Position numbers and translations under genes: made by a program. Under the pieces are notes generated by a model. The model was given only the letters and a program-made list of their open reading frames with translations. It did not search any database and had not been told where the DNA came from. DNA of 64,000 nucleotides from Synergistes jonesii (GTDB lineage: Bacteria > Synergistota > Synergistia > Synergistales > Synergistaceae): contig NZ_JMKI01000031.1 in NCBI RefSeq assembly GCF_000712295.1, forward strand, positions 124,001-188,000, given 5' to 3'. Position 1 is the first letter of the stretch, and each line of letters begins with the position of its first letter. Positions 9,469-45,400 of this stretch are shown in pieces.

Positions 9469-9834
9469 CCGCTGCGTGGCACTTTTCCCATGGGCTGCAA
9501 AGCGGGTTCATACGAACCCCGTTTTCAAAGTCGGGGCTATCCCGTTTGCGGGATAGATACCGACTCCGTATACTTCGTAAACTCTTCTTTTTGCGCCTTT
9601 CAATTCCTCGGGTCACAATCAACGGTGAAGTCGCAGTAGAGTTTCCCTACATCCGGCTCCAACTATACGGCATGAAAGTTTTTCTCGTGTCCGTGCATTT
9701 TGACAAACGCCCCGATGACGGCGCGGTTGCGTCAATAGTTTTTGCCCGTTTCGGCATTTTTAACAGAACATACGATACTATTTTCCGAAATCGGCAAAAA
9801 CGCTGAGGATTTATTGATAATGCGATTCATTATA
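9469..9834. other. Gene-free, AT-richer stretch with possible decayed coding sequence
   Basis: No intact gene. Read on the minus strand, pieces such as KLYCDF and FTKYTESVSIP appear in one frame but are broken by stops, so it could be a decayed gene; I do not recognise it. A small inverted repeat CTATCCCGTTTGCGGGATAG lies at 9538-9557. Base composition is lower in GC than in the neighbours. Confidence 0.35.
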
Positions 9835-9840
9835 TATAAT
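9814..9840 (+). promoter_or_regulatory. Promoter upstream of the Fic gene
   Basis: TTGATA (9814-9819), 15 bases, TATAAT (9835-9840). A transcript from here would start just after the ATG at 9841, so it would have to use a later start for any small upstream ORF. Confidence 0.45.
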
Positions 9841-10008
9841 ATGTACAAATTGGGGGCGTCAGGAGAAGCGTGGCGTTCGCCGGCGAATAAGACGCCGCTG
9901 AGGAAGACGTCGGCGCGCCGCTCGAGCCGTCCGGCCGTATCGCTTAGGGAAGCCGCGGAGCATATAAAATCCGCGGAAAATGCTTTGCGCAAGGGGGCGT
10001 TGATATGA
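9841..10008 (+). CDS. Small basic ORF overlapping the Fic start
   Basis: 55 residues, Arg/Ser-rich in the middle with a helical end (REAAEHIKSAENALRKGALI). Its TGA overlaps the ATG of the Fic gene (ATGA), which suggests translational coupling. Fic toxins often have a small inhibitor upstream, but the inhibitory motif (S/T)xxxE(G/N) is not present, so this need not be an antitoxin. The start codon is uncertain; the frame is open from further upstream. Confidence 0.4.
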   Translation: MYKLGASGEAWRSPANKTPLRKTSARRSSRPAVSLREAAEHIKSAENALRKGALI

Positions 10009-10622
10009 TTCTTGAAAACAAACTCGGCATAAATACGGCCGCGGAACTGGCGAGGGCGGAGGAGGGGATAAGCAAGCGAAAAGCCGCCGAAATGTTTGAA
10101 AGCGGATTCCTCGACACGCTCGAAGCCGGAACATTCTCCTCGCTTGCGGCGATACATAGATACCTTTTCTGCGAAATATACGGCTTCGCCGGGAAGGTCA
10201 GAGACGTCGACCTCGCAAAGGGCGGCTTTCGCTTCGCTTCCGTGCTGTACCTTGCGGCCGCGCTCGAAAGCATAGAAAAAATGCCTCAGCGGACGTTCGA
10301 AGAGATAATCGAAAAATACGTGGAGACGAACGTCGCCCACCCCTTCAGAGAGGGAAACGGGCGCAGCGCGAGGATATGGCTCAACCTGATTTTAAAGAAA
10401 GAGCTGCGTATGGTCGTCGACTGGAGCAGGGTCGACAAAGACGGTTATCTTGCCGCGATGGAGCGCAGCCCCGTCGCGGACGCGGATGTCAAAAAGCTGC
10501 TCAGGGCGGCCCTCACCGACGAAATCGACGACCGCGGCGTCTATATGAGGGGCATAGACGCGAGTTACCATTACGAAGGGTACAACGTCTACAGGACCGA
10601 AGAGCTCAAAAGCGAAAGCTGA
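10005..10622 (+). CDS. Fic-domain protein (AMP-transferase family)
   Basis: 205 residues. The active-site loop HPFREGNGRSARIWL (about residues 112-126) matches the Fic motif HxFx(D/E)GNGRxxR, so catalysis (transfer of AMP from ATP to a target hydroxyl) is plausible. The helix VRDVDLAKGGFRFA before it is also typical. The C-terminal part (RGIDASYHYEGYN) resembles that of small stand-alone Fic proteins of the cell-filamentation type. It overlaps the preceding small ORF by four bases. Confidence 0.88.
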   Translation: MILENKLGINTAAELARAEEGISKRKAAEMFESGFLDTLEAGTFSSLAAIHRYLFCEIYGFAGKVRDVDLAKGGFRFASVLYLAAALESIEKMPQRTFEEIIEKYVETNVAHPFREGNGRSARIWLNLILKKELRMVVDWSRVDKDGYLAAMERSPVADADVKKLLRAALTDEIDDRGVYMRGIDASYHYEGYNVYRTEELKSES

Positions 10623-10830
10623 GAAAAAATAGAAAAAATATTTCGCGCGGAGGCCAAAAATTCCGGCGAAATTTTTTTGCCGAATCTTTTGAAGCGAATC
10701 TGTTCCTTGACGGGACGCGGAAGGCGGGCGAAAAACCGGCCGAAGCAGGCTGCCGTGAGGCGCCGGCGCTACGGCCCCCCTTTTACGAGCCTACGGGGTT
10801 GCGCGACCGGCGCCGCTTGGCCGCGATGTT

Positions 10831-35493: not shown

Positions 35494-36639
35494 ATGGCAG
35501 AGATCGCAAAAATACCGTCGTTCGACCTTACGAGGAATTACGTCCGCGTAAAAGAGGAGGTAAACGTCGCCGTCCGGAGGGTGCTCGACACCCAGCACTT
35601 CATACTGGGCCCCGAGGTCGAGGCGCTGGAGAGAGAGCTCGCCTCTTATCTTGAAGTCAAAAACACGATAGGCTGCGCCTCCGGCACAGATTCCCTTATC
35701 CTCGCGATGATGACGCTGAACCTTGAGCCGGGCGACGAAGTCATCACGACTCCGTTCACCTTCTTCGCGACGGCGAGCTGCATCACGAGAAACGGCGGGA
35801 CCCCGGTCTTCGCCGACGTAGATCCCTTCACTTACAACATAAAGAGCGAAGAGGTGCTGTCGAAGCTCACGCCGCGTACGAGGGCGGTGCTGCCGGTGCA
35901 TCTCTTCGGGCAGATGTGCCCGCTCGAAGAGATAAAGGACGAGCTGAAATCGCGAGGGGTCGTCCTCATCGAAGACTGCGCGCAGTCTATCGGAGCACAC
36001 AGGATGATAGAGGGGCGCGTCGCGCGTAGCGGCTCGGTCGGGGATATGGGCTGCTTCTCTTTCTTCCCGACGAAAAATCTCGGCTGCTACGGAGACGGCG
36101 GGCTCGTCTCGGTCGCTTGCGACGAAGATCTCGCATCACGCATCAAGCGCCTGCGCGTCCACGGCGCCGGCGACACCTATTTCCACGAAGAGGTCGGCAT
36201 CAACAGCCGCCTCGACGCGCTTCAGGCCGCGATACTGCGCGTCCGCCTGCGCCATCTCGAAGGCTGGAATGAAGAGCGCAGGATCGTCGCCGAGCGTTAC
36301 GCGGAGCTCTTCGCAGAGAATGACCTTCTCGAATCCGTCACGCTTCCTGCGGAGGCGAAGGGCGGATTCCACGTCTTCCATCAGTACGTCGTCCGCGCTA
36401 AGCGCCGCGACGAGTTGCAGAAGTTCCTGGCCGCGCGCGGCGTCACGACGCGCGTCTATTATCCGCTGCCGCTGCATTTGCAGCACTGCTTCTCATACCT
36501 CGGCTATAAAAAAGGAGATTTCCCCGTCGCGGAGATGCTCGCCGACGAGGTCCTCGCGCTGCCGATGTTCCCTGAGCTTCTTCCGGAGGAGCAGCAGTGC
36601 GTCGTCTCCGAGATAGCGGATTTCTATCGCGGTGCATAA
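35494..36639 (+). CDS. DegT/DnrJ/EryC1/StrS-family sugar aminotransferase
   Basis: 381 residues, PLP fold type I. IPSFDLTRNYVRVKEEV, IGCASGTDSLILAMMTL, GDEVITTPFTFFATASCI, LIEDCAQSIGA (Asp contacting the pyridine) and SFFPTKNLGCYGDGG with the Schiff-base Lys; C-terminal VYYPLPLHLQHCF. Such enzymes transaminate nucleotide-linked keto-sugars for surface glycans. AGGAG precedes ATG 35494. Paired with the GntR gene; with the sugar transferase upstream it suggests a surface-glycan function. Confidence 0.92.
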   Translation: MAEIAKIPSFDLTRNYVRVKEEVNVAVRRVLDTQHFILGPEVEALERELASYLEVKNTIGCASGTDSLILAMMTLNLEPGDEVITTPFTFFATASCITRNGGTPVFADVDPFTYNIKSEEVLSKLTPRTRAVLPVHLFGQMCPLEEIKDELKSRGVVLIEDCAQSIGAHRMIEGRVARSGSVGDMGCFSFFPTKNLGCYGDGGLVSVACDEDLASRIKRLRVHGAGDTYFHEEVGINSRLDALQAAILRVRLRHLEGWNEERRIVAERYAELFAENDLLESVTLPAEAKGGFHVFHQYVVRAKRRDELQKFLAARGVTTRVYYPLPLHLQHCFSYLGYKKGDFPVAEMLADEVLALPMFPELLPEEQQCVVSEIADFYRGA

Positions 36640-42075: not shown

Positions 42076-42126
42076 ATTTGCGGCGCGGCCGGACGGGGCG
42101 GAACCGTTCGGCCGCGCTTTTCTTAT
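42076..42126 (+). terminator. Terminator after the small exported protein gene
   Basis: GCGCGGCCG (about 42083-42091) pairs with CGGCCGCGC (about 42109-42117), followed by TTTTCTTAT. Strong intrinsic terminator. Confidence 0.8.
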
Positions 42127-42189: not shown

Positions 42190-42218
42190 TTTGACAAAAG
42201 GAAACTTTTGGTGTAGCC
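42190..42218 (+). promoter_or_regulatory. Promoter of the kdsB-kdnB-kdnA set
   Basis: TTGACA (about 42191-42196), 17 bases, TAGCCT. The -10 box is weak. The leader to kdsB is about 90 bases and ends in AAGGAGGGTTAGAGGG before the ATG. Confidence 0.5.
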
Positions 42219-42305: not shown

Positions 42306-43031
42306 ATGAAGACCCTTGCAGTGATTCCAGCAAGATATTCCAGCACAAGGCTGCCCGGCAAGCCGCTTGTAGAAATTGCCGGCGTTCCTCTCGTTCTGCG
42401 CGTCCTGAACAACGTCCGCTCCTGTCCCTCTGTCGACCGCGTCATAGTCGCGACCGACGACGAACGAATCGCGGAGGTCGTCGCGCGCGGCGGCGGCGAG
42501 GCGCTGATGACGCCGTCCGAGCTTCCGAGCGGCGGCGACCGCGTCGCCTATGCCGCTAAGAGGATCGAAGCGGATTACGTTTTGAACGTCCAGGTGGACG
42601 ATCCGCTCGTCGGCGCGGATATGATAGACTCCCTCGTGGCGGCGCTCGACGCGGACCGCTCGGTAATGCTCGCCCTCCTGGTGAAGAGGATCGAAAATTC
42701 CGAAGAGGTCGCCGCGCCGAACGTGGTCAAGGCCGTTTTCGACGGCGGCGGGCGCGCGATGTATTTCAGCCGCTCGCCTATACCTTATCCGCGGAACGAG
42801 GGCGGCGTATGGTACAAGCATATCGGCCCCTACGGCTGGCGGCGCGATTTCCTCTTGGAATTCGCCGCTATGGAACAGACGCCGCTCGAAAAGGCGGAGA
42901 GCCTCGAAATGCTCCGCGTCATAGAGCGCGGGCGCTCGATAAAGTGCGTCGAGGCCGCGCGCGATACCATCGAGATAGACACGCCCGAGGATCTGACGAG
43001 AATCGAAAAATATTTTCGCCGCGGATTTTGA
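42306..43031 (+). CDS. kdsB: CMP-Kdo/Kdo8N cytidylyltransferase
   Basis: 241 residues. IPARYSSTRLPGKPL is the nucleotide-binding motif of 3-deoxy-manno-octulosonate cytidylyltransferases; VDRVIVATDDERI, LPSGGDRVAYAAKRI, NVQVDDPLVGADMI, YFSRSPIPYPR, YKHIGPYGWRRDFLLEF and GRSIKCVEAARDTIEIDTPEDL follow. It activates Kdo with CTP for lipid A-core synthesis. The two genes downstream, an alcohol dehydrogenase-like oxidase and an aminotransferase, match the order of the Shewanella kdnA/kdnB/kdsB locus, so the true substrate may be the 8-amino form. Confidence 0.93.
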   Translation: MKTLAVIPARYSSTRLPGKPLVEIAGVPLVLRVLNNVRSCPSVDRVIVATDDERIAEVVARGGGEALMTPSELPSGGDRVAYAAKRIEADYVLNVQVDDPLVGADMIDSLVAALDADRSVMLALLVKRIENSEEVAAPNVVKAVFDGGGRAMYFSRSPIPYPRNEGGVWYKHIGPYGWRRDFLLEFAAMEQTPLEKAESLEMLRVIERGRSIKCVEAARDTIEIDTPEDLTRIEKYFRRGF

Positions 43032-43096
43032 TTCGCGGCCGTCCGAGCTGCGGACGCGCCGCTCTGCGGCGGCTTTAAAGAAATGGGGAAATTTTT

Positions 43097-44215
43097 ATGA
43101 TCAGGATAGCCGAAGATATAAAAAGTTTTACAGAAATGCAGCCCTTCTGGCGCGTCGAGCTGCCGACGGAGGTGGTTTTTTCCGGCGACGGAGTGCGTGA
43201 GCTCCTTGCGAAGCTTAGGGAGCGCGGGAGGCGCGCCTTCTTCGTCGTCGACTCCGCGCTGAAGGAGCAGCCGCGTTTCGCGCCGCTCTTCGCGCAGAAA
43301 AACCTTTTCGAGTTCGACGCGACCTCCTCCGAGCCGCGCACCTCCGACGTCGATTCTCTGCGCGCGGAGATTCGGGAGCTGGCGGAGCAGCCGGACACGC
43401 TCGTCGGAGTGGGGGGCGGCGCGGCGATGGACCTCGCGAAGGCGACGGCCGTTTGTCTCGCAAACCCACGTCCGGCGCAGTGCTATCAGGGCTTCGACAT
43501 GGAGATGAACAAGGGCGCGGACGTCTGGACGATGCCGGCGCTCATCGGCACCGGCGCGGAGGTCACGCCTATCGCCGTGCTGCGCGGGCCGGAGAGGAAG
43601 CTCGGCATAAACAACCGCTACGTGCAGGCGGAGCTCGCGGTGATCGACCCGGAGCTGTCGAGGGACGCGCCGCATTTCAACAGGTTTTTCACGATGCTCG
43701 ACAGCTATTTCCACCACTGCGAGATATTGGCGAGCAAGACGAGCGCGGCGGACGCCAAGGCCGATTCGCAGGAGGGCGTAGAGCTCGCGCGCCACGTCCT
43801 TTCGCACGACCTGAGCCGCTACAGCGCGGAGCTCGCGATTAAGTCCGCGGCGGCCTCCCTGCTCGGCGGGAGCAGCTCCGTCACGGGACGAGTCGGCGCG
43901 GCTCACGCTATCTCCTACGGCCTCAGCAACTGCGCGCCGCGTCTGCCGCACAGCGTCGCGGTGACGATCTCGATGTGCGCGCTCGAAGACGTTTACCCTG
44001 CGGGCTGCGCGGAGACGAAGGGCTTTCTCGCCGCGAACGGCTTTCCCGTGCCGCGCGCGTCGAACTACGGCGTCACGCGCTTGGATATAGAGAAGATGAC
44101 GCGCAGCGTGCTCGGCATGGGAAAGCTGTGGCGCAGCTGCTTTGGAGAAAATTGGCGCGCTGCGGCCGCGCGCGGCTGGATAGAAGATGTTTACAAAAGA
44201 ATAGTCAAGGGGTGA
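43097..44215 (+). CDS. kdnB: KdnB-like Kdo 8-oxidase (iron-containing alcohol dehydrogenase family)
   Basis: 372 residues. N-terminal Rossmann part (FWRVELPTEVVFSGDGVREL, VGVGGGAAMDLAKATAV) and a helical metal domain with ALIGTGAEVTPIAVLRGPERKLGINN, a D-x3-H pair in MLDSYFHHCE, and two His in GRVGAAHAISYGLSNCAPRLPHSVAV. In Shewanella KdnB oxidises the C8 hydroxyl of Kdo to an aldehyde for transamination. The identity rests on the position between kdsB and a KdnA-like gene and on the family; the sequence alone only shows the Fe-ADH fold. The metal-site spacing should be checked by alignment. Confidence 0.82.
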   Translation: MIRIAEDIKSFTEMQPFWRVELPTEVVFSGDGVRELLAKLRERGRRAFFVVDSALKEQPRFAPLFAQKNLFEFDATSSEPRTSDVDSLRAEIRELAEQPDTLVGVGGGAAMDLAKATAVCLANPRPAQCYQGFDMEMNKGADVWTMPALIGTGAEVTPIAVLRGPERKLGINNRYVQAELAVIDPELSRDAPHFNRFFTMLDSYFHHCEILASKTSAADAKADSQEGVELARHVLSHDLSRYSAELAIKSAAASLLGGSSSVTGRVGAAHAISYGLSNCAPRLPHSVAVTISMCALEDVYPAGCAETKGFLAANGFPVPRASNYGVTRLDIEKMTRSVLGMGKLWRSCFGENWRAAAARGWIEDVYKRIVKG

Positions 44216-44221
44216 CGCAGA

Positions 44222-45400
44222 ATGGCAGGCACGGAAATTTTTGACGACGACGAGATAAGGGCGGCGGCCGACGTAATAAGACGCAGGATGATACACCGCT
44301 ACGGCTCGCACGAGCAGCGCGGGGGAGTCTACCGCGCCGAGGAGTTCGAGGCCGCGGCGAAGAAGATAACGGGCTCGCGCTACGCGCTCGCGCTGTCGAG
44401 CGGCACGGCGGCGCTGATCACGGCGCTGAAGGGGGTCGGAGTGAAGCCGGGCGACGAGGTGATCACCTCCCCCTTCACCTTTATCGCGACTGTCGAAGCG
44501 ATAGTCGCCTGCGACGCAGTGCCGCTATTCGGAGAGATAGACGAGACGCTTTCGCTCTCGGCCGCGTCGGCGGAAAAGCTGATCACGCCGCGCACGAGGG
44601 CGCTGATGCCGGTGCACATGTTCGGCGCGGCGGCGGATATGGATTCCTTCACGGCGCTCGGCAGAAAATACAAGCTCCCCGTCGTCGAGGACGCCTGCGA
44701 GGTCGTCGGGGGCACTTATAAGGGGCGCGCGCTCGGCGGGATAGGCGACTGCGGCGCCTGGAGCTTCGATCCGAACAAGACCCTCACCGTCGGCGAGGGG
44801 GGTATGCTCTTCACGGACGACCGCGACGTCTGGTTCGCGATGGACTGCTATCACGACCACGGGCACATACACAGCAAGGAACATGACCGCGGCGCTGAAG
44901 GGAAGTTCGGCTTCGGCGTGAACTTCCGCATAAGCGAGCTGCAGGGCGCGCTCGGCGTCGTCGCCTTATCGAAGCTGCCGGCGGCGCTGGCCTCGCTGCG
45001 CGCCGAGAAAAAGAAGATAATGGACGCGGGAAGGGCGGCGGGGCTCGCGCCGCGCCCGTCGCACGACGAAGCGGGAGACAGCGCGACTCACGCGATATTC
45101 ATGCTGCCGACCGCCTCCGCCGCGAAAAAATTCCAGGCCGCCGCGAAAGAGGCCGGCGCCGGCTGCGCGATAATCGGAGAGAACACATGGCACTACGCGA
45201 AGCACTGGGAAGCGCTCGCCGCTATCGGCGAAAAAGAATATTTCGGGAACAAAACCCCCTCCTACGCGCCGGAGAGCTTCGCCCAGGCCGACGAAAAGCT
45301 CTCGCGCGCGACGGCCTTCACGCTGAACGTCAAAATGGGCGAAGAGGAGATAAATAAAATCGTCAGGGCCGTGGAGGCGGGAGCGAAAGCGGCGCTGTAG
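44222..45400 (+). CDS. kdnA: KdnA-like 8-amino-Kdo transaminase
   Basis: 392 residues, DegT-family PLP enzyme. EIFDDDEIRAAADVI...HRYG, ALALSSGTAALITALKG, PGDEVITSPFTFIATVEAIVACDAVPLFGEIDETLSLS, MPVHMFGAAADMD, VVEDACEVVGGTYKGRALGGIGDCGAWSFDPNKTLTVGEGG (Schiff-base Lys in NKTLT) and DHGHIHSKEHDRGAE...GVNFRISELQGALG. The DHGH and DRGAE stretch is particular to KdnA-type enzymes. It would transfer an amino group from glutamate to the C8 aldehyde of oxidised Kdo, giving 8-amino-3,8-dideoxy-octulosonate. It starts six bases after kdnB. Confidence 0.87.
   Translation: MAGTEIFDDDEIRAAADVIRRRMIHRYGSHEQRGGVYRAEEFEAAAKKITGSRYALALSSGTAALITALKGVGVKPGDEVITSPFTFIATVEAIVACDAVPLFGEIDETLSLSAASAEKLITPRTRALMPVHMFGAAADMDSFTALGRKYKLPVVEDACEVVGGTYKGRALGGIGDCGAWSFDPNKTLTVGEGGMLFTDDRDVWFAMDCYHDHGHIHSKEHDRGAEGKFGFGVNFRISELQGALGVVALSKLPAALASLRAEKKKIMDAGRAAGLAPRPSHDEAGDSATHAIFMLPTASAAKKFQAAAKEAGAGCAIIGENTWHYAKHWEALAAIGEKEYFGNKTPSYAPESFAQADEKLSRATAFTLNVKMGEEEINKIVRAVEAGAKAAL

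Follow-up and report, generated by a model that had tools for sequence, protein, structure and literature searches.

Kdo is the anchor sugar of outer-membrane lipopolysaccharide (LPS), and the locus described here raises the question of whether a member of the Synergistota makes an amino-modified form of it. In the route known from Shewanella, KdnB oxidizes Kdo at C8 and KdnA transaminates the product, which is then activated with CTP and transferred by WaaA. This KdnA-KdnB-KdsB pathway to 8-amino-3,8-dideoxy-octulosonate (Kdo8N) was reportedly described in Shewanella oneidensis by Gattis et al. (2013, J Biol Chem 288:9216). KdnB is a Kdo 8-oxidase (PMC5125639), and Kdo8N, a structural component of Shewanella LPS (PMC6357163, PMC3210612, PMC4052302), has been called a hallmark of that genus (PMC6357163) and made its LPS unlike every other LPS structure then known (PMC3210612). 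On Synergistota LPS or Kdo, our literature search returned nothing on point. We analyzed a 64,000-nucleotide stretch of the Synergistes jonesii genome (the window), in which the original prediction had placed a cytidylyltransferase, an iron-type alcohol dehydrogenase (ADH) and a DegT aminotransferase in tandem. We propose, with a probability of roughly 0.8, that this trio forms a branch from Kdo to CMP-Kdo8N, which WaaA would use on the lipid A precursor. The case would be one of a known pathway in a phylum for which we found no prior report, with a two-synthetase arrangement and good genomic context.

The tandem was confirmed as three intact open reading frames in the order kdsB-kdnB-kdnA, all on the + strand within 42306-45400 and preceded by a terminator-like element:

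42082..42118, + strand: terminator-like stem of 15 pairs, 12 of them G-C, followed by TTTCTT; 3' of the upstream gene
42306..43031, + strand: kdsB2, intact open reading frame, 241 aa
43097..44215, + strand: kdnB, intact open reading frame, 372 aa, iron-type ADH
44222..45400, + strand: kdnA, intact open reading frame, 392 aa, DegT fold

Gaps of 65 and 6 bases separate kdsB2 from kdnB and kdnB from kdnA, respectively. A ribosome-binding site, AAGGAGGG, lies immediately 5' of kdsB2, and AAGGGG, which overlaps the 3' end of kdnB, provides a good one for kdnA. The stem at 42082-42118, found in a consensus-only scan that returned eight terminator-like sites in the region against 5.4 expected, suggests that the three genes are transcribed as a unit of their own. 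A candidate promoter with a TTGACA-like site at 42191 was rejected, as its second hexamer is poor and it was absent from the promoter scan output.

The kdnA product matches the DegT aminotransferase family (PF01041) and that of kdnB the iron-type ADH family (PF00465). Both families are large, and the NCBIfam and Pfam matches carry general names alone, with no model naming KdnA or KdnB; both proteins were therefore assigned from solved structures, phylogeny and gene context. In a search against all solved structures, S. oneidensis KdnA (5k8b) matched the window KdnA over nearly its full length with 268 bits, compared with 169 for the next structure. The predicted models of KdnB and KdnA (mean pLDDT 94.0 and 85.8) were compared by fold, and 5k8b again ranked first for KdnA, with a Z score of 48.9 versus 42.8 for the next DegT structure. 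Such a lead would not be expected if the trio held an ordinary nucleotide-sugar aminotransferase (ArnB, PseC or WecE type) and an alcohol dehydrogenase unrelated to it, a reading for which the size of the two families and their general names leave room. Moreover, the three corresponding models scored far under their cut-offs (145.8 against 631, 168.4 against 423.5 and 137.7 against 375, respectively) and the kdsB-kdnB-kdnA trio recurs across Synergistota, so that we regard this explanation as scarcely credible.

The window KdnA is ~40% identical to the characterized enzyme and forms a clade with Shewanella KdnA (support 100/99) against three DegT outgroups, in a tree where, as in that of KdnB, the program warned that the placement of the long outgroup branches is unsure. 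Within this clade, the subclade it falls into is sister to the characterized one, and we know of no characterized protein among its members. Residues R26, D183, H215, H217, R223, N321, W323 and W329 are kept in 28 of 28 KdnA-like rows of the alignment and are missing from outgroup DegT proteins wherever these can be aligned. Among six full-length DegT proteins of the genome, the window KdnA alone carries the DHGH.H and N.WHY motifs. Of the three motifs that the original prediction had called KdnA-specific, DHGH (residues 212-215) and DRGAE (222-226) are indeed present, although in the latter R223, and not the whole motif, is invariant. The third, NKTLT, we discarded as a KdnA mark because it is just the general motif of the PLP lysine, here K186, for which S. 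oneidensis has VKTIT. Together, these features point to a PLP-dependent 8-oxo-Kdo aminotransferase as the likely product of kdnA. A second DegT aminotransferase gene lies in the window at 35494-36639, ~6 kb upstream of the trio; its product resembles PseC and WecE, with scores under the cut-offs, and is without the KdnA signature.

For KdnB, the highest sequence scores among solved structures went to 3rf7 of Shewanella denitrificans, with 153 bits, and to 5k8c of S. oneidensis, with 147; the family ranked after them reached 59 bits. By fold, too, Shewanella KdnB came first, with Z scores of 46.8 and 44.6 versus 42.4 for the next structure. The best matches of both proteins, by sequence and by fold, are thus the Shewanella structures 5k8b, 5k8c and 3rf7 rather than other amino-sugar enzymes. 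The original prediction had singled out the metal ligands of KdnB as a point to be checked, and the expected Asp/His/His/His set is complete: D202, H206, H270 and H285 are invariant in alignments with the S. oneidensis sequence. The protein also carries a signature of YQG at 130-132 together with N172. Although only ~31% identical to the characterized enzyme, it forms a clade with Shewanella KdnB (100/100) that is separate from the four other iron-ADHs of the genome. Judging from these residues and the clade, kdnB probably encodes a Kdo 8-oxidase that would be metal-dependent and NAD(P)-linked.

The kdsB2 product exceeded the cut-offs of the CMP-Kdo synthetase models TIGR00466 (180.6 bits versus 155.2) and PRK13368 (261.6 versus 255). 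Like the synthetase of the ordinary KdsD-KdsA-KdsC-KdsB-WaaA pathway it is thus a member of this family, but it falls into a separate Synergistota clade (100/100), and its gene has those of an oxidase and a transaminase as neighbors. The ordinary synthetase, which we call KdsB1, is encoded elsewhere in the genome, was overlooked by the original prediction, and is 42% identical to KdsB2, each lying in its own clade with support of 100. Where ordinary KdsB has HLGIYAF and EQLR, KdsB2 has HIGPYGW and EMLR; among its relatives HIGPY and EMLR are kept, whereas ordinary enzymes combine EQLR with other residues in HxGxY. These substitutions are suggestive only, as PMC3149649 does not tie the substrate-pocket residues of KdsB to C8. 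Based on its clade and its gene partners, KdsB2 is probably a CMP-Kdo8N synthetase. A single monophyletic group of Kdo8N-linked KdsB enzymes that would include the Shewanella one was considered and rejected, as the tree places the KdsB2 clade apart from the Kdn-linked KdsB of Shewanella.

The original prediction had equated the trio with the Shewanella gene set. This holds for the enzyme families, which are clustered in both and share the metal ligands of KdnB and the PLP lysine and signature residues of KdnA. It does not hold for the gene order, which is kdnA-kdnB-kdsB in Shewanella (locus L134). In addition, the proteins are only 31-40% identical, the KdsB is of a different clade, and the window genome has an extra, ordinary KdsB.

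KdsB1 belongs to an ordinary Kdo/lipid A cluster (G000:C31, 53-64 kb) that encodes LpxB, an MsbA-like ABC transporter, LpxK, KdsA, KdsD, WaaA and KdsB1, and KdsC, encoded on another contig (C37), completes the Kdo pathway. One WaaA-type protein was found in the genome, and its gene is 110 kb away from the trio. A complete ordinary pathway with a second synthetase near WaaA implies that both CMP-Kdo and CMP-Kdo8N are probably made, and any replacement of Kdo may be partial here. The simplest reading is that the two activated sugars compete for, or alternate on, one transferase.

We propose the following sequence of events. Free Kdo, supplied by KdsD, KdsA and KdsC, would be oxidized at C8 by KdnB, and KdnA would transaminate the resulting aldehyde to Kdo8N, probably with glutamate as the amino donor. 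KdsB2 and CTP would then activate Kdo8N to CMP-Kdo8N, from which the single WaaA would move the sugar onto the lipid A precursor, which would add a positive charge to the inner core. As an ordinary KdsB is retained near waaA, the LPS probably holds Kdo and Kdo8N together, or the two under regulation.

The same arrangement could be read differently, with CMP-Kdo8N being made for a capsule, an O-chain or another surface glycan and the inner core keeping the Kdo activated by KdsB1. This possibility fits the presence of KdsB1 in a separate, complete Kdo/lipid A cluster and the position of the trio away from that cluster, and E. coli has separate CMP-Kdo synthetases for LPS and capsule (PMC3149649). 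However, no capsule genes were recognized beside the trio among the part of the flanking genes that was scanned, and related loci place kdn genes within lipid A metabolism. We compared 40 neighborhoods in Synergistota, which fell into three layouts. Type 1, that of the window, has kdsB-kdnB-kdnA in this order or the three genes near each other. Type 2 has a KdnA ~46-54% identical to that of the window, with a different iron-ADH gene before kdnA. In type 3, kdsB is found with a KdnA that is nearer to the Shewanella enzyme (51-54%), the gene for a window-type KdnB being either adjacent or elsewhere. In seven type-2 loci (L039, L040, L042, L043, L045, L046 and L047, from genomes G011, G017, G022, G124, G174, G176 and G182), an LpxK/LpxB-related gene, kdsB, kdsA, kdsD, waaA, the iron-ADH gene and kdnA follow each other on one strand, so that the latter two lie directly 3' of waaA. 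Each of these genomes encodes a single KdsB at E<=1e-20; as this sole enzyme is of the kdn type, it must supply WaaA there. The KdnA-less genomes inspected (L161-L163) have KdsB1 alone, and one of them shows the gene order lpxK-kdsA-kdsD-waaA-X-kdsB1. These rows and the KdnA-less genomes together indicate that the kdn genes belong to Kdo/lipid A metabolism in Synergistota, and we consider a destination outside the inner core unlikely. By extension from these relatives, we infer that Kdo8N is also incorporated next to lipid A in S. jonesii.

Type-2 loci share with the window the KdsB clade, the KdnA subclade and an iron-ADH with YQG and N172, but their genes stand in the kdsA-kdsD-waaA row instead of a free trio, and their iron-ADH falls outside the KdnB clade with moderate support. 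D52, D86, N123, Y130, Q131, G132 and N172 are common to this enzyme and KdnB, and the combination is missing from the other iron-ADHs of the genome. The type-2 iron-ADH may be a distant sister of KdnB or a replacement for it. In one type-2 genome, G124, a lone KdnB gene is found alongside the type-2 locus (L044:6474-7697, - strand); its product is 46% identical to Shewanella's and was possibly acquired horizontally.

Partners are exchanged among the layouts, window-type KdnB occurring with both KdnA subclades and the window KdnA subclade with either KdnB or the type-2 iron-ADH, as would be expected if all share one intermediate. This exchange bears on whether the Synergistota KdnA subclade might lead to a different amino-ulosonate, aminated at another carbon or later N-acylated. 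The separation of the subclade from the Shewanella enzyme and the substitutions specific to KdsB2 are compatible with such a product, as is an acyltransferase gene (Acyl_transf_3) directly 3' of kdnA in one type-2 locus (L042:4855-6177, - strand), whose product could acylate the sugar or be unrelated to it. Yet both subclades pair with the same type of KdnB, and the invariant KdnA residues listed above, from R26 to W329, are common to both, which makes a different sugar quite improbable and favors Kdo8N.

To estimate how common the pathway is, we examined 188 Synergistota genomes. Window-type KdnB is encoded in 51 of them, representing 23 of 63 genera, and KdnA homologues (E<=1e-70) in 92. A kdn-type KdsB, defined by >=50% identity to the window KdsB2 with a score gap beneath, is present in 96. 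Kdn-type KdsB and KdnA occur together in 87 genomes and are both absent from another 87, while nine have the KdsB alone and five KdnA alone (Fisher p = 3e-36, with genomes counted as independent despite shared ancestry). The window genome and many of the relatives found belong to one family of Synergistota.

Scanning a single genome for each species, we obtained at least 558 stretches that code for KdnB relatives, the best 80 of which include members of Desulfobacterota, Bacteroidota, Verrucomicrobiota, Cloacimonadota, Sulfurivirga and Shewanella. In the fetched flanks of these best 80 loci, KdnA was found in 30, KdsB in 39 and both in 14. The order kdnA-kdnB-kdsB is seen in Shewanella, Sulfurivirga, several Desulfobacterota and Cloacimonadota, and in Bacteroidota kdsB lies close to kdnB with KdnA not adjacent. 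All 12 genomes tested nevertheless encode a KdnA homologue, which in 11 is full-length and well above other DegT matches and in a Verrucomicrobia genome (G196) is partial and weaker. In Zobellia, Maribacter and Kordia (L130:4448-7002, L096, L116 and L145), kdsB is near kdnB, and in Zobellia a gene for a HAD-type hydrolase lies between them. Since every genome tested encodes a KdnA homologue at another site, Kdo8N may be widespread among marine Flavobacteriia.

With kdn genes common in Synergistota and present in several other phyla, the pathway is unexpectedly widespread. We see an even chance that Kdo8N is ancient and frequent in the inner cores of at least six phyla and that, in the lineage studied here, synthetases for Kdo and Kdo8N feed a single WaaA, which would let the cell adjust its inner-core charge. 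If the proposal is true, many Synergistota anaerobes of gut, mouth and sediment, and probably many Desulfobacterota and Bacteroidota likewise, would carry amino-modified Kdo next to lipid A. Their surface charge would be altered, and the binding of antimicrobial peptides and of lipid A receptors could change; the effect on antimicrobial-peptide resistance suggested originally is plausible in this light. Standard Kdo assays might misread the LPS of these bacteria. Species with two KdsB enzymes would offer a natural pair for studying how a CMP-Kdo synthetase discriminates between Kdo and Kdo8N.

Finally, the Kdo cluster at L065 encodes, between waaA and kdsB1, a 406-aa protein (9495-10712, - strand) that has no Pfam match at 1e-8. 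It was not found in type-2 loci, and proteins 64-89% identical to it are encoded at the corresponding position of four further Kdo clusters in Synergistota.
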